From NCBI GenBank assembly GCA_031280885.1, contig JAITGD010000025.1, positions 1-36,244 on the forward strand: a stretch of 36,244 nucleotides of DNA. The letters are read 5' to 3'. This stretch comes from Prevotellaceae bacterium (GTDB lineage: Bacteria; Bacteroidota; Bacteroidia; Bacteroidales; UBA932). The position numbers and the translations under genes were made by a program. The notes beneath the pieces are model-generated. The model had not been told where the DNA came from and searched no databases. It saw only the letters and a list, made by a program, of their open reading frames with translations. Within the stretch, counting starts at the first letter, position 1, and each line of letters begins with the position of its first letter. This document shows positions 616 to 35,963 of the stretch, piece by piece.

Positions 616-3381
616 ATGGTAGTATCATTTTGGAGATTGTGGTGTTCGATTGCGGCTTTTATTCTGATTGGCCTCGCATCGATACAGGCTCAGGATAGAA
701 CATTCTGGTTTGTTGTTCCCGATTTGGCCTATCAAAGCAATAGCGGTAGCGAAACGGTGGACAGACCGGTGTTTTTTGTCATAAGCACAGGCGCGGAAGC
801 TGCTACTGTTGTTATGTCGATGCCGGCAAACTCAATAAACTTTTCGGCGCGGACATTCAATATCGCCGCCAATTCGTCGGAACGAGTAGTTTTCAATAGT
901 GCGAGCGAGATGGCGTCAATAGAAAACAGCGTGCTTGACGCTACTTGCGGAGTGAAAAATAATAAAGGCGTGCTTTTTACCTCAAGCGCTGAGGTAACGA
1001 TATACTATCAAGTTGATTCACCTAATTCAAAAGATATTTTCACACTCAAAGGCTCGAAGGCATTGGGGCTGGATTTTTACACTCCGTTTCAAACGCGATG
1101 GAACAGCAGTCCCAATCATAACGACGCATATCCACAGTTTCATATTGTAGCTACTGAAAATAATACTACGGTGAATATCCTTCCAAAGGCAAACATTGTA
1201 GGCACAAATGCCGGAGTGTTGAAAACGGTGATACTGAATCGTGGCGAGACCTTTGCCGCACGAGCGAGAAATGCTTCTCTTCGTCTTGACGGATCGAGGG
1301 TTACATCCGATAAGCCTGTGGGAGTGGTGGTGGCCGACGATGAAATGCAGGCCGACGGCGCTCTGGATCTGGGCGGCGACCAGATAGTGCCGGTATCGTG
1401 CTTAGCAACAAATCATGTGCTTATACGCGGATTTACGTTTGATGCGTATGGCGATTACATTTATATCTTAGGAACAAGACCGAATACGCAGATATTCTTC
1501 GACAGCGACCCTACGGTGCAAAGAACAATCCAGGCGGGCGAAACCTTCGAAATGAAAATGGATAATAACACGCTTACCCGCTATATCCGTAGCAGCGAGC
1601 CTGTTTATCTTTATCAGGTTTCGGGCGTTGAGGACGAACTTGGCGCTGCGCTTGTGCCGGGGATGTATTCCATCAATTCGCGACGGATATCCTTGTACAC
1701 AGGAGCTTCCGGGCCGGAAATTAGCGACTATCTTTTCCTTCTTGTACGTAGCGGCAACGAAGGCAATTTCTTGCTGAACGGCGAATCGGGAAAGATTAAT
1801 GCGTCGAGTTTCAGCGCTATATCCGGACTTCCGGAGTGGAAATACGCACGTATCGACGTCAGCAATGCGATAAGGCCGTCTTCCGTTAATGTGGTTGAAA
1901 ACATACACGGAGCTTTCGCTTTGGGATATTTCCGCAATGCGAACAACAAGTCGGCTTTGTATGGATATTTATCGATGTTTGGCCAGCTCGAACTTCCCGA
2001 TACGACGCAGGCCTGTCGCGGACAAGAACTTACTTTGGATGCCGGCTATGCAAAATCGTACAAGTGGTGGAAAAGCGGCGAGCCGAGCCGCGTCCTTTCC
2101 ACTGAGGCAATATATAAGGTTCCGGCCAACGAAACAGGCTGGTACTGTGTGCGTGTCGAGCAGGATCCTTTTCAGGTAATCGATTCTACTTACGTCAAAA
2201 TAGAGGAATTTAACGCTCTTGCCAATATTCCCGTCCTGTTCAAGGTCGGAACTCCGCAGGATTTCTCGGTGAGCCTTGCTCAGGAAACAGACAAATCGTA
2301 TTCGTGGACTTTCTCGGGAGCTACGACCGAAACTTCTTCGACGCCTAATCCTTCGGGAATAGTGTGGCCGGAAGCAGGCGAGGCAAACCTCAGTCTGACA
2401 ATAAGAAATAATCGATTGCATTGCGATACTGTAATTACACGAAAATTAATAGTTTATGGCACGAAAGACACAACGGTATGTCTCGGCACAGAGCTTAGCC
2501 TGTCGCCACTCGAAAACGGCGTTCATGCAGAGGTAAGGTGGTATTCCGATAGTCCTTATTCCACTCTGATTCACACAGGTGAAAGCATTACGTTTCGCGC
2601 CGCATCAGCAGATACGGTTCTTTATTTCATCATACGCTCAGAAGGAGAGGAGGTGAAAGATAGTGTCAAAATATCAGCAATAAACCCTCCGACGGTCAAA
2701 GCAATGAGCGATACGCTAATCTGTTACGGAGATGCGATATTTCTGCATGAGGAATACGACGCTTCTTCGATTGCATGGAACGTCGAAAGGAGAGAAATAC
2801 GTCCGAAGTTTACTGAGGATTATATCGTTACAGCCAGCCGTCGTCCTTGTCCCGACGTGCGCGACACGGTAACTATTACGGTCAATGATTCGCTGTACAT
2901 CAGTCCCGACGCGCTGCCTGCTCATCAGAAAGGAGCGCCATATTTGCAGCAACTAACAAGCAATGCAGCAAATCCATTCTTTGTTTCGCACGATTTGCCC
3001 GAAGGATTCACAATGAGCAACGATGGCGAAATCAATAAAATAGCGCTCAATGCCAAAATGCAGGATACAAAATTCACCGTAACCATAACCGACGATTACG
3101 GCTGCGAACTTGTTAAAGAATACGAGCTTGTAGGCCAGCTTTTTGTTCCTGAAATATTTACACCCGATAATGACGGAGTAAACGACCGTTTTATGAAAGG
3201 ATTTAGCTTGATTATCTACGACCGGCTGGGAATTAAAATCTTCGAGGGCGACGACGGCTGGGATGGAACGTGTAAAGGTCAAGCAGTTCAGCAGGATACA
3301 TATTTTTATATTTTGAATTATACTGACGACGACGGCGCAAAAGCCAAACTTCAAGGGCCAATTACAATAGTGAGGATGTAA
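616..3381 (+). CDS. Secreted IgGFc-binding-like protein with T9SS type B (CHU_C) sorting domain
   Basis: The 921-residue product has a signal peptide (hydrophobic residues about 8-24, ending SIQAQ). A long beta-rich N-terminal half contains FHIVATENNTTVNILPKA and DYIYILGTRPNTQIFF, which resemble the IgGFc-binding N-terminal domain found in Bacteroidota surface proteins. Ig-like or PKD-like segments follow (about 460-840, with CRGQELTLDAG, CLGTELSLSP and CYGDAIFL segment starts). Residues 842-921 form a gliding-motility/CHU_C domain with the hallmark FTPDNDGVNDRF. In this family the C-terminal domain directs export across the outer membrane by the type IX system. The ligand is unknown; binding of immunoglobulin is a family name, not something shown here. 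The ATG is preceded directly by family B repeats. Confidence 0.9.
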   Translation: MVVSFWRLWCSIAAFILIGLASIQAQDRTFWFVVPDLAYQSNSGSETVDRPVFFVISTGAEAATVVMSMPANSINFSARTFNIAANSSERVVFNSASEMASIENSVLDATCGVKNNKGVLFTSSAEVTIYYQVDSPNSKDIFTLKGSKALGLDFYTPFQTRWNSSPNHNDAYPQFHIVATENNTTVNILPKANIVGTNAGVLKTVILNRGETFAARARNASLRLDGSRVTSDKPVGVVVADDEMQADGALDLGGDQIVPVSCLATNHVLIRGFTFDAYGDYIYILGTRPNTQIFFDSDPTVQRTIQAGETFEMKMDNNTLTRYIRSSEPVYLYQVSGVEDELGAALVPGMYSINSRRISLYTGASGPEISDYLFLLVRSGNEGNFLLNGESGKINASSFSAISGLPEWKYARIDVSNAIRPSSVNVVENIHGAFALGYFRNANNKSALYGYLSMFGQLELPDTTQACRGQELTLDAGYAKSYKWWKSGEPSRVLSTEAIYKVPANETGWYCVRVEQDPFQVIDSTYVKIEEFNALANIPVLFKVGTPQDFSVSLAQETDKSYSWTFSGATTETSSTPNPSGIVWPEAGEANLSLTIRNNRLHCDTVITRKLIVYGTKDTTVCLGTELSLSPLENGVHAEVRWYSDSPYSTLIHTGESITFRAASADTVLYFIIRSEGEEVKDSVKISAINPPTVKAMSDTLICYGDAIFLHEEYDASSIAWNVERREIRPKFTEDYIVTASRRPCPDVRDTVTITVNDSLYISPDALPAHQKGAPYLQQLTSNAANPFFVSHDLPEGFTMSNDGEINKIALNAKMQDTKFTVTITDDYGCELVKEYELVGQLFVPEIFTPDNDGVNDRFMKGFSLIIYDRLGIKIFEGDDGWDGTCKGQAVQQDTYFYILNYTDDDGAKAKLQGPITIVRM

Positions 3382-3384
3382 ATG

Positions 3385-3415
3385 TATCGACCTACGCATC
3401 GATAAATCCTTTTTT
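3385..3415 (+). terminator. Possible weak intrinsic terminator after the T9SS gene
   Basis: TATCGA and TCGATA form a 6-bp stem around CCTACGCA, followed by AATCC and a six-T run. The stem is short and the T-run is not directly adjacent, so this is only a candidate. Confidence 0.35.
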
Positions 3416-3426
3416 GCTCATCTTAG

Positions 3427-3490
3427 CTTTCCAATAGTCTAAAAGTCTAACAGTCTAAAAGTCCAATAAAAAGTCAAACAGTCCAAAAGA
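3427..3490 (+). repeat. Family A 8-bp tandem repeat (AGTCYAAM orientation)
   Basis: Consecutive 8-bp words AGTCTAAA, AGTCTAAC, AGTCTAAA and AGTCCAAT, then looser copies, lie between two same-strand genes. This block does not touch a stop codon and has the opposite orientation, relative to its upstream gene, to the other family A loci. Confidence 0.85.
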
Positions 3491-3514: not shown

Positions 3515-3591
3515 CATCAATTTTCAGGCACGCATGTCGGGAAACTCTACAAAGAGTGTCGGTGTGTGCAAAAGCATTTAATATTAGTCGG

Positions 3592-5196: not shown

Positions 5197-5646
5197 ATGG
5201 GCGAAAACGAATTGACTTTGACCACTCCCGCCTTGCTGTTTTCGGCATTGTCGTTGCTTATGCTGGCTTTTACAAACCGATTTCTGGCTCTGGCTCAACT
5301 TGTTCGCAATGTTCATGCCGAATACAAAACAAATCCCGACAAGATTCTTCATTCTCAAATCCGCAATCTGCGCAAGCGATTACGACTGATTCGCGATCTT
5401 CAAGTCGCCGGTATCGGAAGTCTGCTTTTATGCGTAGTTTGCATGTTTTTGGTGTATGTCGGATACAAAGCCGCCGCAACCATGGTATTCGGCGTAGCTC
5501 TGATGTTGCTGATTATTTCGTTGATAATGACCATCTGGGAAATACTAATATCCATCCACGCCCTGAATTACCGCCTCAGCGACGTAGAGGAATTTCAAGA
5601 AGAATCAAGATTTCAGGAGCCAAGAGCCAAGACTTCAGGACGGTAA
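5197..5646 (+). CDS. DUF2721 family membrane protein with repeat-derived tail
   Basis: The 149-residue product matches DUF2721: an N-terminal hydrophobic helix (PALLFSALSLLMLAFTNRFL), a basic amphipathic linker (LRKRLRLIRDLQ), then two further transmembrane segments around residues 70-115. Function is unknown. ATG 5197 is preferred over the TTG directly before it. The family-like sequence ends near residue 132 (YRLSDVEEFQ). The last residues (about SRFQEPRAKTSGR) and the TAA stop are encoded by the first unit of the family B repeat that fills the gap to mnmD, so the native C-terminus seems to have been replaced or extended. Confidence 0.82.
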   Translation: MGENELTLTTPALLFSALSLLMLAFTNRFLALAQLVRNVHAEYKTNPDKILHSQIRNLRKRLRLIRDLQVAGIGSLLLCVVCMFLVYVGYKAAATMVFGVALMLLIISLIMTIWEILISIHALNYRLSDVEEFQEESRFQEPRAKTSGR

Positions 5647-5845
5647 ACGTCTTGTGGAATCAAGATTTCAAGAACCAAGAGCCAAGACTTCAGGACGGTA
5701 AACATCTTGTGGAATCAAGATTTCAAGAATCAAGAGCCAAGACTTCAGGACGGTAAGCATCCTCACTCCAAACGTCCTGACTCTTGGTTCTTGAAATCTT
5801 GGTTCTTGAAATCTTGGTTCTTGAAATCTTGGTTCTTGGCTCTAA
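5602..5845. repeat. Family B inverted repeat between convergent genes
   Basis: Three direct units with a period of 55 bp (starts near 5602, 5657 and 5712), each containing CAAGAGCCAAGACTTCAGGA, are followed from about 5777 by reverse-orientation 15-bp units, CTTGGTTCTTGAAAT, repeated four times. The two halves can pair over long stretches. The element covers the 3' ends of both flanking genes: it encodes the DUF2721 tail and, on the other strand, an NQDFK-repeat tail of MnmD. Confidence 0.9.
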
Positions 5846-8076: not shown

Positions 8077-8230
8077 AACCAAGATAGCAAGACCCAAGAG
8101 CCAGGACGTTTTGACGGTCATATAGGGGCATGGCGCGCCTGGCCACTACAATGCGTATTCTTTCCAAACGTCCTGATTCCTGCAATCTTGGTTCCAAAAG
8201 TCTTGGCTCTTGTAATTTTGGTTCCAAAAA
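8075..8230. repeat. Family B inverted repeat between convergent GH3 and ptb genes
   Basis: The left arm (8075-8110) reads AGAACCAAGA...CAAGAGCCAGGACG. The right arm (8165-8230) carries the reverse complements, including AACGTCCTGATTCC, CTTGGTTCC and GTCTTGGCTCTTG. The loop includes the self-complementary GGCGCGCC. The element runs stop codon to stop codon, as at 5602-5845, and could act as a bidirectional 3' structure. Confidence 0.85.
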
Positions 8231-9134: not shown

Positions 9135-9137
9135 TTT

Positions 9138-9165
9138 ATGAATTATGAATTATGAATTATGAATT
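9138..9165. repeat. Four copies of ATGAATT just upstream of ptb
   Basis: A perfect 7-bp tandem repeat (four units) ends a few bases before the ptb start codon on the minus strand, in its leader. Change in copy number would alter leader length. Confidence 0.85.
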
Positions 9166-9167
9166 AT

Positions 9168-9235
9168 CTGTCCAAAAATCCAACAGTCTAATAGTCCAAA
9201 AGTCTAATAGTCTAACAGTCCAACAGTCTAATTAG
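9168..9235 (-). repeat. Family A 8-bp tandem repeat overlapping the ackA stop codon
   Basis: About eight AGTCYAAM words fill the ackA-ptb gap. On the minus strand the first word, TTAGACTG, supplies the TAG stop of ackA (9230-9228). Confidence 0.9.
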
Positions 9236-10433
9236 CTAATTTTGCGGTATCTATAGCGATAACAAGTTCTTCGTTTGTTTCGGCCAGCACGAGTTTTAGT
9301 TTCGATTGCGGCGTACTTATTATAGCATCATTTCGACGGTTATCGTTTGCTGTCGGATCGATTTCGGCGCCGAGGTATCCCAGATAGCTTGATATTCCGG
9401 CGCGTACTTCGGAATCGTTTTCGCCGATTCCTCCGGTGAACACCACCATATCTACACCATTCATAGCTGCGGCGTATGCTCCGATGTACTTGACCATGCG
9501 ATAGATAAACATGTCGATTGATAGTCGAGCGCGTTTGTTACCCTCGCCGCAGGCTGTCCACAAGTCGCGCACATCCGAAGAAACGCCTGATATTCCGGCC
9601 AATCCGCAGTTTTTATTCATAAAAGCATTGATTTCGGCGGAGGTTTTGTGCTCTATTTCTTGCAGATATGTTATTACGCCGCCGTCGAGATCGCCGCAAC
9701 GTGTTCCCATCATCACGCCTTCGAGTGGAGTGAATCCCATTGAAGTATCCACCGAAAGTCCTTTGTTGATGGCTGTTACAGATACTCCATTGCCCATGTG
9801 GCAGGTTATGATTTTCGATTGTTCGAAATCAAGGCCTGTCATTCGGCAGGCTTTTTCGGCCACGAATTTGTGGCTTGTGCCGTGAAATCCGTAGCGACGA
9901 ATTCTGTATTTCTCGTAATATTCGTAAGGAATGGCATACAGATACGCTTTTTCGGGGATGCTTTGGTGGAACGAGGTGTCGAACACTGCTACCTGCGGCA
10001 CTTTGGGAAGGAGTTTTTCCATCGACAATATTCCTTTCAGATTGGCCGGATTGTGCAGTGGAGCAAGTTCTGCGCATTTTTCGATATCGATTTTAGCGCG
10101 TTCATCAACCACCACGCTGCCCGAGAAGTACTCGCCTCCATGGGCTACGCGATGTCCGACGGCGTCGATATCGTTGATGTGTTTAAGCACGCCATGCTCG
10201 CTGTCGGTCAATGCATCCAGAATAGCATTGACTCCTACGGAGTGGTCGGCGTATGCTTTTTTTAGCTCGTAAACGGCTTTGCCCGTGGGCTTGTGTACGA
10301 GAAGGCCTTCGGGTAAGCCGACACGTTCGACTATGCCTTTAGCCAGTACTTTACTTTCGTCGCAGTTGTTCGACATGCTCAGCAGCTGATACTTAATTGA
10401 CGAACTCCCGCAGTTTAAAACAAGAACATTCAT
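9228..10433 (-). CDS. ackA: Acetate kinase
   Basis: Enzyme of 401 residues that makes acetate and ATP from acetyl phosphate. Family signatures are present: VLNCGSSSIKYQL at the N-terminus (acetate kinase type; butyrate kinases begin differently), RRYGFHGTSHKF, ITCHMGNGVSVTAI and VVFTGGIGEND. Length is normal for AckA. It has its own likely promoter at 10501-10508 and precedes ptb. No acetyl-type Pta is present in the window. The stop codon is provided by the adjoining family A repeat. Confidence 0.95.
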   Translation of the reverse strand: MNVLVLNCGSSSIKYQLLSMSNNCDESKVLAKGIVERVGLPEGLLVHKPTGKAVYELKKAYADHSVGVNAILDALTDSEHGVLKHINDIDAVGHRVAHGGEYFSGSVVVDERAKIDIEKCAELAPLHNPANLKGILSMEKLLPKVPQVAVFDTSFHQSIPEKAYLYAIPYEYYEKYRIRRYGFHGTSHKFVAEKACRMTGLDFEQSKIITCHMGNGVSVTAINKGLSVDTSMGFTPLEGVMMGTRCGDLDGGVITYLQEIEHKTSAEINAFMNKNCGLAGISGVSSDVRDLWTACGEGNKRARLSIDMFIYRMVKYIGAYAAAMNGVDMVVFTGGIGENDSEVRAGISSYLGYLGAEIDPTANDNRRNDAIISTPQSKLKLVLAETNEELVIAIDTAKLAN

Positions 10434-11212: not shown

Positions 11213-11258
11213 TCCAACAGTCTAAAAGTCCAACAGTCCAACAGTCCAACAGTCTAAA
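11213..11258 (-). repeat. Family A 8-bp tandem repeat overlapping the CDF transporter stop
   Basis: Five to six AGTCYAAM words. On the minus strand the run TTTTTTTAGACTG supplies both the last Phe codons and the TAG stop of the transporter gene. Confidence 0.9.
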
Positions 11259-12147
11259 AAAAGTCCCCCTTCATCGGTTCAACGTGAATTGTAACATGAG
11301 TATCGGCGCCGAATCTATCTCGCAGTTTTCGTTCGATTTCGCGAGTAACCTCATGCGCTTTTTCCACCGTTTCGTCGCCCGGAAGACGCACGTGCATCTC
11401 TATGGCTACACGATTGCCTATCTTTCTGGTACACAGATTGTGAACATCTTTTGCTCCGGTAGTTTCAGCGAGAGACTTTATTTCGTCTTTTGTTTCTTTT
11501 GATAGTGAACCTTCGAGCAATTCGCCGGCGCTTCGGATGATCAATCCAACGGAAGCCTTAACCACGAAAACGCTGACCACTACGGCTGCTATCGGGTCAA
11601 GCACAGCCCAGCTATCTCCGAGAACGATTGCTCCGGCAATGCCCAGCGTAGTGCCTATCGACGAAAAAGCGTCGGAACGGTGATGCCAAGCATTGGCCAG
11701 CACTGCCTCGCTGCCCAGCCGGCGACTTGTGGCGGCAGTGTAGCGATACAGCCATTCTTTGATAACTATCGACACAAGAGCCACAACGAGCGCTACAAGC
11801 TTCGGACGCCCAGTCGCTTCGCCACAGATGAAATCGACAATATGCTCGCTTCCAGAATAAAAAATGCCCGTGCCGACAGCGGCCAACGACAAGCCGATAA
11901 GCAGAGTCGCCGCCGTCTCGAACTTCCCGTGTCCGTAGGAATGGCTTTCATCGCGTGGTTTCGACGCAAGACCTACAAAGGCTATAACAACCACATCAGT
12001 AAGGAAATCCGACAAAGAATGAACCGCATCGGCCACCATAGCAGCGCTGTTACCTGCTATTCCTGCCGCTAATTTTATCACAAGCAAGCCGGCGTTGGCC
12101 ACCGCTCCGATACCCGTTACTCTGTAGATTTCCTTTTTACGATTCAT
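11254..12147 (-). CDS. Cation diffusion facilitator family metal exporter
   Basis: The 297-residue inner-membrane protein of the CDF family exports divalent metals (Zn, Fe, Mn or similar) by proton antiport. The first metal-site motif is DAVHSLSDFLTD near residues 40-51, followed by SHSYGHGKFET and, in the fifth helix, HHRSDAFSSIG. A cytoplasmic C-terminal domain (about 215-297) ends in HVTIHVEPMKG. The paired HxxxD/DxxxD-type residues are intact, so it looks functional. Metal preference cannot be assigned. The C-terminal GDFF and stop run into a family A repeat. The likely promoter is at 12189-12196. Confidence 0.93.
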   Translation of the reverse strand: MNRKKEIYRVTGIGAVANAGLLVIKLAAGIAGNSAAMVADAVHSLSDFLTDVVVIAFVGLASKPRDESHSYGHGKFETAATLLIGLSLAAVGTGIFYSGSEHIVDFICGEATGRPKLVALVVALVSIVIKEWLYRYTAATSRRLGSEAVLANAWHHRSDAFSSIGTTLGIAGAIVLGDSWAVLDPIAAVVVSVFVVKASVGLIIRSAGELLEGSLSKETKDEIKSLAETTGAKDVHNLCTRKIGNRVAIEMHVRLPGDETVEKAHEVTREIERKLRDRFGADTHVTIHVEPMKGDFF

Positions 12148-12205: not shown

Positions 12206-12314
12206 TTTTGGACTTCTTTTGGACTGTTGGACTTTTGGACTTTTGGACAGCCGTCTTAGCTCTTGCAATCCACTTCTTACTCAGTCCAAAAGTCTAACAG
12301 TCCAAAAGTCTAAA
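12206..12314. repeat. Composite inverted repeat: family A arms around a family B core
   Basis: The left arm has about five TTTTGGAC-type words (12206-12248). The right arm has AGTCCAAA, AGTCTAAC, AGTCCAAA and AGTCTAAA (12283-12314). Between them is a word of the family B type (GTCTTAGCTCTTGCAATCC). The right arm meets the rhuM remnant precisely where its homology stops. Confidence 0.88.
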
Positions 12315-12521
12315 TTGCGTGCCGCGCTTGCTTCTCACACGAAAACCGATGGCAAGAATCATGTCCAAACTATAAAAAGTTACCTTGTAATTCTTGCCGT
12401 CGGCAGCAGTTGTTAAGTAATTCTTAATAACTGAATTTGCATCCAATTCCTTTTCATCCAATATATTAATGATATGCCAGCTGACATTTTGCTTCGAGGT
12501 GTCAAAAAGTTCTGCGAGCAT
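12312..12521 (-). pseudogene. rhuM-family remnant, truncated at both ends
   Basis: The translation contains LAELFDTSKQNVSWHI, SVIKNYLTTAADGKNY and SLDMILAIGFRVRSKRGTQF, characteristic of the N-terminal part of RhuM (virulence/death-on-curing associated) proteins of about 300 residues. Only about 70 residues remain. An in-frame TAA lies directly before the ATG, so the real N-terminus is missing. After RGTQF the frame runs into the family A repeat (RLLDC, then TAG). It is therefore an internal fragment, probably non-functional, left between the CDF gene and the his operon. Confidence 0.85.
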
Positions 12522-20902: not shown

Positions 20903-22576
20903 GTGCTTGTCGATTTAAACATAGAAAATTACGCACTGATTGACAAACTCAATATCCGTTTCGATGCGGGTTTGAGTATAATCACCGGCGAAACAGGCGC
21001 CGGAAAATCCATTTTGCTTGGTGCGCTCTCGCTCGTTCTCGGCGAACGCGCCGACACGAACGTCCTGAAAAATAAAGATAAAAACTGTGTTGTGGAAGGG
21101 ATGTTTCGTATCGACGGTTACGGTTTGACTGCGATTCTCGCCTCCAACGACATCGACGTGCCGAGAGAAGGCGAACTGATAGTCAGACGGGTGATAAATC
21201 CTGCGGGCAAATCGCGAGCTTTTATCAACGATTCGCCAGTGAGCGTCAGCACGATGAAGGAAATCGGCGACAAGCTCATCGACGTTCATTCGCAGCACCA
21301 AAATCTGCTGTTGGCAACCGGAGGATTTCGACTTTCGGTGGTCGATGCGCTTGCCGTACAAGGCTCGATTCGTGATGAATATGGCGCAGCCTACGGCGAT
21401 TATCGAGACAAAGAACGCAAACTCGCCTCCCTGCGCGAACTCAGCGCTCAGGCAAAAAACGATTACGAATACATCAAATATCGTTACGAACAGCTTGAAC
21501 AAGCCAAACTTCTGGCCGGCGAACAGGAGGATCTCGAAGCGGAGGCAAGCCGTCTGCGTCATGCCGAAGAAATTCGCGAAGGCTACGGACGAATCACTGC
21601 GACGCTCTCCGGCGACGAAATATCGGTGAGCGACATGCTGAAGGAAATCGAACATATATTCGGCAAACTCGCCGCCGTGCATCCCGAATCGAAAGAACTC
21701 GCCGAGCGTACACATTCGATATTGATTGAAGTAAAGGATGTTGCCGAAGAATCGGAGCGTATCGGCGGACAGTTGCAAAGCGACCCTTCGCGTTTAGCCG
21801 AAGTCGAACAGCGACTGAATCTTATATACGATCTTCAACAAAGGCACAGAGTCGATACGGTAGCCGAACTGATTGCAATTCGGGACAAATTGGACGCGGA
21901 AATAATCGCCGCAGACAATTTCGACGAGGAACTCGCCGCTCTGCAAAAGGCTGTGGATGAGGCTTTCGATAAGGTGAAAAAACTCGGAGCAAAGTTGTCG
22001 GAAGGCAGAAGCGGGGCTATTCCAGAGATCGAAAGATACATAACTTCAATGCTCAAACAGCTTGGTATTCCGAATGTTGTATTCAAGGTGCGCCTGACTT
22101 CGGACGGCGATTATACCGCCACCGGTCGCGACGAGATCGGTTTTATGTTCTCGGCCAACAAGGACGTTGCGCCGCGCGAAATATCGAAGGTGGCTTCGGG
22201 CGGCGAAATGTCGCGTTTGATGCTTTCACTCAAATCATTGCTCGCCGAAAGCGTAAAATTGCCGACAATAATTTTCGACGAAATCGACACCGGCGTATCC
22301 GGCGAAGTTTCCGATAAAATGGGCGACATAATCAAGCGATTGTCGAAGGGAGTGCAGGTAATCAATATAACGCATCTGCCGCAAGTAGCAGCTAAAGGCG
22401 ACAGTCATTACCTTGTTTACAAGGAGGATACAGCAACGGCTACTCTTACCAAAGTGCGCCGTCTGAATCGCGATGAACGTGTCGATGAAATAGCAAAAAT
22501 GCTCAGCGGAAGCGTAATTACCGACGCCGCCATCGCGCACGCAAAAACGCTGATTTTTGGACTTTTGGACAGATAG
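20903..22576 (+). CDS. recN: DNA repair protein RecN
   Basis: SMC-like protein of 557 residues involved in double-strand break repair. The Walker A motif GETGAGKS is at 29-36, followed by a long coiled-coil middle (about 155-370). The ABC signature is VASGGEMSRLMLSLKS, and the Walker B region is TIIFDEIDTGVSGEVSDKM. It starts with GTG (MLVDLNIENYALID is the normal family start; no in-frame ATG is nearby) 9 bp after atpE, so it is probably cotranscribed. The last residues, FGLLDR, and the TAG stop are encoded by the first three units of the family A array that follows. Confidence 0.95.
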   Translation: MLVDLNIENYALIDKLNIRFDAGLSIITGETGAGKSILLGALSLVLGERADTNVLKNKDKNCVVEGMFRIDGYGLTAILASNDIDVPREGELIVRRVINPAGKSRAFINDSPVSVSTMKEIGDKLIDVHSQHQNLLLATGGFRLSVVDALAVQGSIRDEYGAAYGDYRDKERKLASLRELSAQAKNDYEYIKYRYEQLEQAKLLAGEQEDLEAEASRLRHAEEIREGYGRITATLSGDEISVSDMLKEIEHIFGKLAAVHPESKELAERTHSILIEVKDVAEESERIGGQLQSDPSRLAEVEQRLNLIYDLQQRHRVDTVAELIAIRDKLDAEIIAADNFDEELAALQKAVDEAFDKVKKLGAKLSEGRSGAIPEIERYITSMLKQLGIPNVVFKVRLTSDGDYTATGRDEIGFMFSANKDVAPREISKVASGGEMSRLMLSLKSLLAESVKLPTIIFDEIDTGVSGEVSDKMGDIIKRLSKGVQVINITHLPQVAAKGDSHYLVYKEDTATATLTKVRRLNRDERVDEIAKMLSGSVITDAAIAHAKTLIFGLLDR

Positions 22577-22857
22577 ACTATTGGACTTTTAGACTTTTGG
22601 ACTTTTAGACTTTTAGTCTTTTAGACTTTTAGACTTTTAGACTTTTAGACTTTTGGACTGTCAGAAAGTCCTGGCTCTTGATTCTTGTAATCTTGGCTCA
22701 ACAGTCCAAAAACAGTCCAACAGTCCAACAGTCCAACAGTCCAACAGTCCAACAGTCCAACAGTCCAACAGTCCAACAGTCCAATAGTCCAACAGTCCAA
22801 AAACAGTCCAACAGTCCAACAGTCCAACAGTCCAAAAACAGTCCAACAGTCCAAAAA
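22555..22857. repeat. Large family A inverted array with family B core, downstream of recN
   Basis: Thirteen consecutive 8-bp units (TTTTGGAC/TTTTAGAC type) fill 22555-22658 without a break. A 41-bp spacer holds a family B word (CTTGTAATCTTGGCTC). About eighteen opposite-orientation units (AACAGTCC) then fill 22700-22857, with three AAA insertions between units. The arms could form a cruciform or, in RNA, a stem of roughly 100 bp. The left arm begins inside recN. Confidence 0.95.
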
Positions 22858-22864
22858 TTGTTAT

Positions 22865-22872
22865 TAGTTTTG
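22865..22872 (+). promoter_or_regulatory. -7 promoter element of the YdjM-like gene
   Basis: TAGTTTTG matches TAnnTTTG, 46 bp before the ATG and 7 bp beyond the last family A unit. The region where a -33 element would lie is repeat sequence. Confidence 0.45.
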
Positions 22873-22918
22873 CGGCGGATTTTAGATTGGTATGAGATAT
22901 TTAAACATCGGATAATTA

Positions 22919-23938
22919 ATGGATTCTCTAACACATGTATTGATAGGTTCGACAATCGGACAGGCAATTGCGGGTAAAAAATACGGAGGCAAAGCCTTGT
23001 TTTGGGGGGCGGTTGCAGGAAGCGCGCCCGACGTCGATTCAGTTTTTCAATGGCTTTTTACGCCGGTAAATTCTTTGTTTTTTCATCGAGGCATATCTCA
23101 TTCGCTTCTGTTTTGGGTGATTTTAAGTCCTTTGCTGGCATGGCTGATAAACAAGATTCACAAAGGCGACAAGGCCGATTTCCGAAGTTGGCTCAAACTT
23201 ACGTCGATAGCCTGGTTTTCGCATCTTTTTGTCGATATGTTCAACACTTACGGAACGGGGATATTCGAGCCGTTTTCGCATCAGCGCGTGGCTTTCGATT
23301 CGATTAACGTGGTTGATGTTTTCTTTTCGTTTCCTCTGTTGATTGCTTTGATTCTGTGTTTTATGCTGAAATCTGTGAATCGTCGCAGAGTGGCGTCAGT
23401 GTCGGCCTTAGTTTTATCGACAGCTTATCTATGTTTTACTATTGTAAACAAAATCGGAACCGAACACTCTGTCGAACATCAACTTGCCGAACAGAGCGTA
23501 AAGTTTCGGCGTTTATTGTCGTCTCCCTTGCCGCTCGCCAATTTAGCATGGATGATAACCGCCGAAGACAGCACGGGATATTGGACTGGAACATACTACA
23601 ATACATCCAAAAACGAAATAAATTTTGAATATATTCCTAAACAGGACGAACTGTCGGAATCGTTTGAAGGTTTGCGTGATTTCGAAAGATTGCAGACTTT
23701 TACCAAAGGCTGGTATGCGCTTCAAAGCAACGAGGATTCTGCGAAAAACATCAACGAAGTAACATTGTACGATCTGCGATTCAGTTCCTTATCCTTTACG
23801 GAATCGGAACGTTTTGTGTTTCGATTCACCATGCAGCGCGACGGCGACGGAATGAAAGTAAATCGAACCAGACCAATAAGATATATAAACGGACGCAACG
23901 CAAGAGAATATTGCCGAAAAGTGTTTCGACGGACGTAA
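22919..23938 (+). CDS. YdjM/LexA-binding-like membrane-bound metal-dependent hydrolase
   Basis: The 339-residue protein belongs to the membrane-bound metal-dependent hydrolase family (YdjM, formerly DUF457). Conserved His and Asp motifs occur in order: MDSLTHVLIGSTIG, GSAPDVDSVFQW, FFHRGISHSLLFW and SHLFVDMFNTYG. They alternate with four transmembrane segments in the first 190 residues. The C-terminal half (about 195-339) is soluble and less conserved. The substrate is unknown. It is convergent with the glycosyltransferase gene, leaving only 9 bp between stops. Confidence 0.88.
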   Translation: MDSLTHVLIGSTIGQAIAGKKYGGKALFWGAVAGSAPDVDSVFQWLFTPVNSLFFHRGISHSLLFWVILSPLLAWLINKIHKGDKADFRSWLKLTSIAWFSHLFVDMFNTYGTGIFEPFSHQRVAFDSINVVDVFFSFPLLIALILCFMLKSVNRRRVASVSALVLSTAYLCFTIVNKIGTEHSVEHQLAEQSVKFRRLLSSPLPLANLAWMITAEDSTGYWTGTYYNTSKNEINFEYIPKQDELSESFEGLRDFERLQTFTKGWYALQSNEDSAKNINEVTLYDLRFSSLSFTESERFVFRFTMQRDGDGMKVNRTRPIRYINGRNAREYCRKVFRRT

Positions 23939-30198: not shown

Positions 30199-30849
30199 AT
30201 GCTTCGAGAACTAAACAAAACAAACTCCGTTTTCAATAAATTCCTGTCGGAAATGCGCGACGTCCAATCGCAAAAAGACAGTATGCGTTTCCGTCGTAAC
30301 CTTGAACGGCTGGGCGAAATCTTTGCCTACGAAATCAGTAAAGAACTGCATTATGAACTAAAATCGGTGCAAACTCCGCTTGGTATCGCCGATATGTATC
30401 TTCCCACTGCCAAAATCGTGCTTGGAGCAATCCTTCGGGCTGGTTTACCGCTGCATCAGGGACTGCTCAACTACTTCGATGCTGCCGAAAATGCCTTCAT
30501 CTCGGCTTACCGAAAGTATGGAAAAGATAACAAATTCACTATCCAATTTGAATCGATTTCTTGCCCTACTATCGAAGGAAAAGTGCTGATCCTCTGCGAC
30601 CCCATGATGGCTACCGGAGCTTCTATGGAATTAGCTTATAACGCCCTGCTTACTCGCGGACGTCCCGCGCATACGCACATCGCCGCCCCTATTGCAAGCC
30701 GCGACGGTGTGGAGTATATCTTGCGACATCTGCCTGCTGACGACGTTACTCTGTGGACCGGAGCTATCGACGAGGAACTTACCATAAAGTCTTATATAAT
30801 TCCCGGACTTGGCGATGCAGGTGACTTAGCCTATGGAAGTAAACTTTAG
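30199..30849 (+). CDS. upp: Uracil phosphoribosyltransferase
   Basis: Salvage enzyme of 216 residues that makes UMP from uracil and PRPP. The PRPP loop is LILCDPMMATGASM, the substrate loop is AILRAGLPLHQGLL, and the C-terminal uracil-binding segment is YIIPGLGDAGDLAYG. Its TAG stop lies in the first word (TTTAGAC) of a family A repeat. The last codons (GAAGTAAACTT) recur 58 bp downstream as part of a tandem duplication. Confidence 0.95.
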   Translation: MLRELNKTNSVFNKFLSEMRDVQSQKDSMRFRRNLERLGEIFAYEISKELHYELKSVQTPLGIADMYLPTAKIVLGAILRAGLPLHQGLLNYFDAAENAFISAYRKYGKDNKFTIQFESISCPTIEGKVLILCDPMMATGASMELAYNALLTRGRPAHTHIAAPIASRDGVEYILRHLPADDVTLWTGAIDEELTIKSYIIPGLGDAGDLAYGSKL

Positions 30850-30935
30850 ACTTTTGGACTTTTAGACTTTTAGACTTTTGGACGATTGGATTTGAAGTAA
30901 ACTTTAGACTTTTGGACTTTTGGACGATTAGACTT
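30836..30935 (+). repeat. Family A repeat with a 58-bp tandem duplication that includes the upp 3' end
   Basis: TTTTAGAC/TTTTGGAC words fill the upp-rpe gap. The 28 bases starting GAAGTAAACTTTAGAC at 30836 recur at 30894. The duplicated segment includes the final upp codons and stop. Confidence 0.9.
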
Positions 30936-30960: not shown

Positions 30961-31617
30961 ATGAATCTTCTCTCAGTTTCTTTGCTTGCTGCCGACTTCG
31001 GATTTCTTGCTCGCGACGTCGAAATGGTGAATCTCAGCGAAGCCGATTGGTTTCACATCGACGTTATGGACGGCGTTTTTGTTCCAAATATCTCCTTCGG
31101 ATTTCCCGTGATGAAGGCCGTAAAAAAATGCGCCCTCAAACCGCTCGATGTTCATCTGATGATAACAAAACCCGAACTGTATCTCGACGATTTCAAGGAC
31201 GCAGGAGCCGAAATCCTAACCGTTCACTACGAAACTTGCCCGCATCTGAACAGCATCATCAATAAAATAAAATCATGCGGAATGAAAGCAGGCCTCGCCT
31301 TGAACCCCCACACTCCCGTAAACCTCGCCGAAAACATAATCCACGAACTTGATCTTCTGCTCGTGATGTCGGTAAACCCGGGCTTCGGCGGTCAGAAATT
31401 TATCGACCATTCTTTACGAAAAATCGAGCAGGCAAAAGAACTAATCATCAAACACAGTTGCAAAACTTTGATTGAAGTGGACGGAGGTATCGACGCTCAA
31501 AACGCAAGTCAAATATACTCGGCCGGAGCCGACGTGCTTGTCGCAGGAAACGCAATATTTTCATCCCCAAATCAGAAAGAATACATCCAAAGAATGAAAA
31601 ATACATCTAAAAGATAG
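30961..31617 (+). CDS. rpe: Ribulose-phosphate 3-epimerase
   Basis: TIM-barrel enzyme of 218 residues in the pentose phosphate pathway. It shows SLLAADFG, the metal-binding WFHIDVMDGVFVPNISFG (His32, Asp34), DVHLMITKPE, MSVNPGFGGQKF and EVDGGIDAQN. ATG 30961 gives the normal family N-terminus. The in-frame ATG at 30940 would add seven residues (MIRTFEQ) that are encoded by diverged family A repeat. Confidence 0.94.
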   Translation: MNLLSVSLLAADFGFLARDVEMVNLSEADWFHIDVMDGVFVPNISFGFPVMKAVKKCALKPLDVHLMITKPELYLDDFKDAGAEILTVHYETCPHLNSIINKIKSCGMKAGLALNPHTPVNLAENIIHELDLLLVMSVNPGFGGQKFIDHSLRKIEQAKELIIKHSCKTLIEVDGGIDAQNASQIYSAGADVLVAGNAIFSSPNQKEYIQRMKNTSKR

Positions 31618-31656
31618 CAAACAACAAAACAAAAATAACTTACAAAGTCAAAAAAT

Positions 31657-32136
31657 ATGCTTACAAATATTAAAAACATGCTCGCCGAGAGCCAAGAATT
31701 GATTATGGATGTTCAACACATGACGCTGGATACCCAAGAAATGATTTTGAATACTCAATCAATGATTATGGAGAATCAAAGCCTGATTCTGGAAATCAAA
31801 TGTATGAATCCGGAAATCAAAAACATCGATCCGGAAGCTAAAAACAGAATTGCGGAAATCAAAAACATGAACGCGGAAATCCAAAGCATGATCACGGAAA
31901 CTAACAACATAGCTACGGAAATCAACGTCATGATTACAGAAATCCACAACGTGATTGACGAGACCCAAGTCATGAAGCCTGAACCTCAAAACATGATCGC
32001 AACATTCCAATGCACGAACACAAAGTGCCAAAACATGACCATAAAGATCAAAAGCACGACCACAAATATCAAAAGCATTAACACAAGGACGCAGGGCATG
32101 AGACAAGAGCTTAAAAGTATAATTAGAAACCGCTGA
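31657..32136 (+). CDS. Pure heptad-repeat coiled-coil protein, function unknown
   Basis: No family is recognised. The 159 residues divide into 22 consecutive heptads plus five residues with no insertion or deletion, from residue 1 onward. The consensus is (M/I)-x-x-E-(I/T)-(Q/K)-(N/S), for example MNAEIQS, MITETNN, IATEINV, MITEIHN. Hydrophobic residues recur at positions 1 and 5, the 4/3 spacing of a coiled coil. The DNA is correspondingly a degenerate 21-bp tandem repeat. It has no signal peptide or membrane segment and sits between rpe and pgi on the same strand. Long open frames also exist on the opposite strand because of the repeat, so expression is not certain. Confidence 0.55.
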   Translation: MLTNIKNMLAESQELIMDVQHMTLDTQEMILNTQSMIMENQSLILEIKCMNPEIKNIDPEAKNRIAEIKNMNAEIQSMITETNNIATEINVMITEIHNVIDETQVMKPEPQNMIATFQCTNTKCQNMTIKIKSTTTNIKSINTRTQGMRQELKSIIRNR

Positions 32137-35816: not shown

Positions 35817-35963
35817 CACAAAACCCTTTTGCGACCTCACAAAACCCTTTTGTAACCTCACAAAACCCTTTTGCGACCTCACAAACCCCTTTTGTAAGCT
35901 CACAAACCCCTTTTGTAAGCTCACAAAACCTTTTTGCGACCTTGTAAAACCCTTTTGCGACCT
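35817..35963. repeat. 21-bp tandem array of CAAAA-CCC-TTTTG palindromes
   Basis: Seven units of exactly 21 bp start at 35817, 35838, 35859, 35880, 35901, 35922 and 35943. Each holds the inverted repeat CAAAACCCTTTTG or the variant CAAACCCCTTTTG, separated by linkers of the type CGACCTCA or TAAGCTCA. The array runs directly into the GCCCCGCAGGGGC palindrome. Confidence 0.9.

Follow-up and report, generated by a model that had tools for sequence, protein, structure and literature searches.

Tandem arrays of short 7-base units in intergenic regions are known from cyanobacteria, e.g., Calothrix, as STRR heptamers, with several families of units in one genome. Arrays of the heptamer type are on record for various groups of bacteria, and there is no agreement about their origin or role. 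Rehm et al. (2015, PMC4692102), the introduction of whose paper mentions the STRR heptamers, describe hundreds of intergenic arrays of the heptamers GGGAATC and GGGGA(C/T)T, with two variable positions, in Xanthomonas and Nostoc. They are found next to genes of all kinds, two Xanthomonas genomes contain 70 and 75 convergent pairs, and some arrays overlap a stop codon. The G-rich strand is the sense strand after stops and the antisense strand before starts, i.e., it is directed outward from the gene. A second unit, TAACTGA, has been described in Beggiatoaceae, cyanobacteria and five Bacteroidetes (MacGregor 2015, PMC4679880). This unit has a stop in each of the three frames, and 13 of its sets extend over the stop codon of an upstream gene. 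In the main genome, most sets immediately precede a start codon and share one orientation, with one inverted case only.

The arrays described here were found in a window of 36,244 nucleotides, the whole stretch of DNA that was analyzed, which is contig C44 of a draft genome of 2.66 Mb (89% complete). The best recN relatives among the named records belong to MAGs labelled Prevotellaceae bacterium, which we take to come from termite guts, and the source bacterium probably also stems from a termite gut. Its arrays share with those of Rehm et al. (PMC4692102) a short tandem unit at many, mostly intergenic sites, convergent pairs, an outward direction of the G-rich strand, and overlap with stop codons. 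In contrast to them, the period is 8 instead of 7, the G-tracts of at least three that go with G-quadruplex formation are absent (the longest G run in the units is GG), the unit carries TAG/TAA and becomes a stop codon, it is not under-represented between divergent genes (the counts are small), and it is here confined to one species. The period of 8 makes the octamer arrays a variant of the heptamer-type arrays and not a plain member. With the TAACTGA arrays (PMC4679880) they have in common the stop-bearing unit, the overlap with gene stops and the occurrence in Bacteroidetes. Unlike these, the unit is NNTTRGAC, and the arms face inward and are located behind stops and before promoter-like boxes. 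In their general description, i.e., short intergenic tandem arrays with several unit families, they also resemble the cyanobacterial STRR. Neither this octamer nor a measured capture of stop codons was found in open-licence papers, a text search with the letters of the repeat retrieved no paper, and at listing level nothing was found in open-licence papers on arrays in termite-gut Bacteroidales.

The first example is the array at the 3'-end of recN (20903-22576, + strand), which encodes a protein of 557 amino acids, the final codons of which are array units. The left arm (22555-22658, + strand) runs outward from recN and was present as the sequence-only reading had described it. It consists of 13 NNTTRGAC octamers, TTTTAGAC and TTTTGGAC with variants, in the order TTTTGGAC, TTTTGGAC, AGATAGAC, TATTGGAC, TTTTAGAC, TTTTGGAC, TTTTAGAC, TTTTAGTC, four TTTTAGAC and TTTTGGAC. 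The first two units and a part of the third are coding, and the TAG within the third octamer (22574-22576) is the stop codon of recN, which the sequence-only reading had not noted. A spacer (22659-22703) is followed by the right arm (22704-22856, - strand), which is composed of octamers in the opposite orientation that read GTCCAACA or GTCCAAAA on the + strand. Just outside of the right arm, TAGTTTTG (22865-22872, + strand), 47 bases before an ORF at 22919, matches the motif TAnnTTTG, presumably the -7 box of Bacteroidota promoters. The frame analysis agreed with what had been claimed from the letters: three successive TTTTAGAC units (22619-22642) put one stop into each of the six frames, and the right arm with its GTCC units is open in several frames, with a single stop over all six (a TAG on the + strand at 22785). 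Across the whole left arm every one of the six frames has 2-3 stops, and in the recN frame the stop that follows the recN TAG lies 15 codons further on. However, base-shuffled copies of the 104-base arm stopped all six frames in 1217 of 2000 cases, and the array behind upp leaves one + frame and one - frame without stops; six-frame stopping alone is thus no sign of function.

The window contains several further arrays. The octamer GTCYAAAA occurs in 37 copies, compared to 3.6 expected copies and a maximum of 8 in 100 shuffles. In four additional cases the preceding gene ends on the TAG of the first unit, i.e., behind upp (gene 30199-30849, array 30844-30933, TAG 30847-30849, + strand), behind the acetate kinase gene (9228-10433, array 9170-9233, - strand), behind a cation efflux gene (11254-12147, array 11220-11259, - strand), and behind an ORF ending at 465 (array 460-486, + strand). 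In addition, an inward-facing pair of arms is located between two divergent genes (12206-12315), and a single arm is found upstream of the ORF at 3556 (3437-3468, - strand).

The analysis was extended to a sample of the genome that consisted of 41 stretches including the window (483,656 of 2,657,402 bases), in which a simple ORF caller found 374 ORFs of at least 100 amino acids. The first sampling batch contained mostly contigs with listed array sites, and the second mainly filled in the remaining low-numbered contigs; contigs C36, C38 and C40-C212 (except C44) and parts of some long contigs past 20,000 bases lie outside of the sample. The number of arms therefore cannot be taken as a density for the whole genome, and the stop codon comparison is one within the sample. 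It yielded a large difference: TAG was the stop codon in 25 of the 32 genes with an outward TTTTRGAC array downstream, compared to 44 of the 316 genes without an array (p = 5.6e-14, 41 stretches), when only units strictly downstream of the stop codon were counted for the assignment of an array. Since a stop codon is part of the unit, contact with an array can be read from the gene itself: the share of TAG stops increases from 14% to 78%. Also the register was verified. The TAG was followed by AC, as in the unit, in 22 of the 25 array genes, and in none of the 44 array-free TAG genes; thus only three of the array-side TAGs were out of register. The four genes that precede an arm of the opposite orientation end with TAA (three) or TGA (one). 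In 17 of the 25 cases no unit was coding before the array TAG, one unit was coding in six cases, and two and three units in one case each. As only 193 of 520 units are of the TAG type, a blind overrun of the gene end would leave longer array-coded tails, which suggests that an immediate stop is of advantage or is favoured by the way in which the junction forms. An exact 6-mer repeat profile around the stops told less about this genome than the unit search, as exact matches are interrupted by variant units.

Six array-ended genes (recN, ackA, hflX, HPPK, dsbD and upp) were compared with their orthologs across the genus; the cation efflux gene had only distant matches and was dropped. None of the nine recN orthologs that were read to the stop ends with TAG, all have TAA or TGA, and the RecN protein ends 1-4 residues later than eight of them and 12 residues earlier than the ninth. 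Judged from this comparison, the end of the RecN protein was most likely written by the array. The clearest case is hflX (stretch L024, 559-1716). The protein is 13-14 residues shorter than all ten comparable orthologs, none of which uses TAG, it is devoid of the C-terminal tail around DAGRYPFGNF of the orthologs, and the array begins at the hflX stop. Thus, at least one protein tail that is common to the orthologs is missing in the array genome. Acetate kinase (ackA) is 2-6 residues shorter than all nine orthologs, again none with TAG, and HPPK is 9-22 residues shorter than five of seven orthologs and 1-2 residues longer than the other two (TAG in one of seven). The length of DsbD lies within -3 to +8 residues of eight orthologs, three of which have TAG, and Upp has the same length as eight of nine orthologs, seven of the nine having TAG. 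In the latter two cases, therefore, some of the TAGs may be older than the array and may have provided the junction. In an unselected comparison, the tails of array-free genes varied from -17 to +18 residues (55 comparisons, 49 genes), and those of array genes from -10 to +3 residues (6 comparisons, 4 genes). In view of this wide variation without arrays, shortened tails alone prove little; the stop codon count is the main evidence and hflX is the strongest single case.

The explanation that is considered probable as a whole is that the intergenic NNTTRGAC arrays capture stop codons, and that they are tolerated passengers that rewrite gene ends and not a dedicated barrier to readthrough. An array would spread or grow into the 3'-end of a gene, and it would persist in those cases in which a TAG unit closes the reading frame immediately. 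As the period is not a multiple of three, a TAG would be offered in every frame within a few units. The outcome of such a capture would be the loss of a tail (hflX, acetate kinase), the addition of residues (recN) or no change (upp), and the arrays themselves would most likely be passengers that the genome tolerates. The ORFs stem from a simple caller, and no array-free allele was seen. The intergenic location, the outward polarity, the inward pairs of arms and the unit TAG that usually is the gene stop are counted features.

These features were quantified with a unit search. The sample contains 72 arms of at least three units with a total of 520 units, the reversed sequences contained none, and the 16-mer GTCYAAAAGTCYAAAA has 425 copies in the genome, compared to zero for the pattern read backward. 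According to the simple caller, 63 of the 72 arms are intergenic, and the unit spacing is 8 in 420 of 448 steps. The NNTTRGAC strand runs outward from the flanking gene or promoter, and at gene 3'-ends the G-rich strand is directed outward in 50 of 62 arrays. Adjacent arms of opposite orientation face inward in 16 of 16 cases in the unit search, and in 22 versus one cases with a different detector. The 16 pairs are located between divergent genes (3), between convergent genes (3) and between tandem genes of each kind (3 each), and one flank is unknown in four cases. Their centres vary in sequence and in length (9-67 bases, one of 316), the two arms of a pair are of unequal length, and many arms are single. 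Arrays are equally regular beside promoters. Of the 25 arms beside gene starts, 11 have a TAnnTTTG box no more than 50 bases from their outer end, compared to 2 of 36 arms facing gene ends, and 70 of 360 ORF starts have this box at -60 to -10. Several contigs start in or beside arrays (L021 4-115, L061 4-115, L025 4-35, L051 112-207), and thus long arrays probably break the assembly and their true lengths are underestimated.

The order of the units within the arms was also analyzed. Mirror symmetry between paired arms was absent (12 of 97 positions, 15.0 expected), and a fold-back origin, in which one arm serves as the template of its partner, was therefore rejected. The same applies to slippage by one unit, because identical neighbours were not clustered (151 of 448, compared to 151.2 in shuffled arms). 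An excess of identity was present at distances of two and four units, with 155 of 376 two-unit repeats compared to 128.9 in shuffled arms, and 16-base dimers thus seem to undergo slippage. Runs of identical units common to different arms were no longer than in shuffled arms, except for a few pairs (five with runs of at least six, compared to about 2.4).

Next, the occurrence in relatives was analyzed. A spread of the unit to relatives was rejected: among 393 genomes of the order the octamer 16-mer matched in 16, the own genome included, and the next highest count was only 9; the octamer arrays are essentially confined to the own genome. In a set of 60 relatives, congener G002 had 17 octamer matches, all on its contig C178, the first 118 bases of which (L071 1-118) are identical to the start of contig C2 of the own genome. 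Going by this identity, C178 is likely a stray contig of the same assembly, which would explain the only large octamer count in a congener. Three congeners (G002, G004 and G010) were sampled with 73 stretches and 766,491 bases, using the G-over-C strand skew as detector, which is cruder than the unit search and leaves arrays of low skew unscored. Their intergenic arrays mostly have a period of 7 and other units. Nevertheless, opposite neighbours faced inward in 11 of 12 cases (7:0 in G002, 3:0 in G004 and 1:1 in G010), the G-rich strand was directed outward at 43 of 51 gene ends, and the stop codon together with three bases was found again one period (7) later in 12 genes. That species with unrelated units have the same polarity suggests that such arrays are generated by a common process. 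G002 also contains a TTAACTGA array (L072). In G004, inward heptamer arms surround a similar centre, GTTGCTTACGC..., at three sites (L084 10918-11243, L116 8007-8242, L117 6791-6904), suggesting a common core.

The sequence-only reading had proposed that the arrays act as translational barriers, i.e., that they are kept at gene ends because their TAG and TAA units stop readthrough and antisense ribosomes in every frame, and that random ordering of the two unit types relative to gene ends would speak against this. Stops on both strands of the units and the six stopped frames of the recN arm fit this proposal, and in the 29 arms facing gene 3'-ends the nearest unit was of the TAG type in 16 cases, whereas 11.6 would be expected if the composition of the individual arms is taken into account (P = 0.053). 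The excess is, however, due to the 13 arms in which the TAG of the first unit is the gene stop (13 of 13). In five arms the stop is in a later unit, and in the 11 arms behind an intact stop the nearest unit was of the TAG type only twice (3.4 expected), and nothing here indicates that a back-up stop has been selected for. The ordering is thus random behind intact stops and not random where the unit is the stop, and the units decide where ribosomes stop as array-borne primary stop codons and not as a barrier behind the stop. In addition, 5 of 29 arms have a TAG in every sense frame (9.5 after shuffling of the unit order), two frames of the upp array are free of stops, arrays beside promoters, where no translation has to be stopped, are just as regular, and the published arrays with the same geometry (PMC4692102) use GGGAATC, a unit that by our own reading lacks stops in all frames of that strand. 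At gene starts the nearest unit was of the TAG type in 5 of 24 arms (8.5 expected). Of the units that come after the stop unit, 11 of 23 in the frame of the gene and 18 of 58 in the other two were of the TAG type; these raw counts would fit a weak back-up role. On balance a barrier function is highly unlikely. The inverted arms could also form a long hairpin at the transcript end and serve as a terminator or as a stabilizer of the mRNA 3'-end. The 16 inward pairs and the predicted folding of the recN spacer region (-107.5 kcal/mol, z -8.3 compared to 100 shuffles) agree with this, but a GC-rich stem followed by a U tract is not what was found. A U-rich arm precedes an A-rich arm and A tracts come after the stem, which is the reverse of an intrinsic terminator, and the lone terminator-like site in 22400-23000 is at chance level (1 versus 0.6 expected). 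Of the 12 inward pairs for which both flanks are known, 3 lie between divergent genes, a place without transcript ends, which is as many as in the other gene arrangements, and many arms are single. This function is regarded as unlikely.

Two further explanations concern the origin of the arms. They could be the terminal inverted repeats of a mobile palindromic element similar to MITEs or REPs, which later were expanded. That inward-facing pairs are the rule and that several G004 arrays have a similar centre would be expected for such an element. It is nevertheless improbable, because within the own genome the 16 pairs have differing centres, the arms are unequal and often single, and the runs of identical units hardly exceed those of shuffled arms. 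Alternatively, a unit of 7-8 bases with a fixed polarity could be added, in a telomere-like manner, to free 3' DNA ends at intergenic breaks, the two ends being joined afterwards. If true, this would explain the outward G-rich strand in every gene context, the inward pairs, the arms that are not mirror copies of each other and lack clusters of identical neighbours, and the different unit in each congener. However, a reverse transcriptase as source of templated repeats was rejected, as RVT_1 had no match in the own genome (89% complete), G002, G004 and G010; it is present in 6 of the 13 genomes of the genus, and thus does not track the arrays. Joining of ends by Ku was likewise rejected, as Ku was found in none of the 13 genomes, and the excess of 16-base repeats points to ordinary slippage. 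In view of these negative results, telomere-like addition is given a very low probability. The plainest account of the origin is slippage of dimers together with spread into tolerated sites. It leaves the polarity unexplained, as does stop-codon capture, the preferred reading of the gene ends. With the stop codon as a trace, the inertness of such arrays becomes a countable question in any genome that carries them.

The window was also searched for Rfam RNA families, with no match at gathering score. Additional repeats are present in the spacers. Arrays of the 7-base unit ATTATGA directly adjoin octamer arrays (window 9136-9167; L028 11710-11850), and thus several unit families are nested within one spacer. 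A second family of intergenic repeats with CAAG/CTTG words is found at 5602-5838, 8162-8229 and 22672-22697 of the window, with a 55-base unit in 2.9 copies and TCTTGGTTCTTGAAA in 3.8 copies, and a piece of this family forms the spacer between the two recN arms. In-frame tandem repeats of 12 and 21 bases are located inside ORFs or at ORF ends (217-365 and 31575-32136). Lastly, the 21-base repeat CACAAAACCCTTTTGCGACCT is present in seven copies at 35817-35963, and stretches resembling it were seen in L031 (1692-2172) and in L027 (about 3090-3400).
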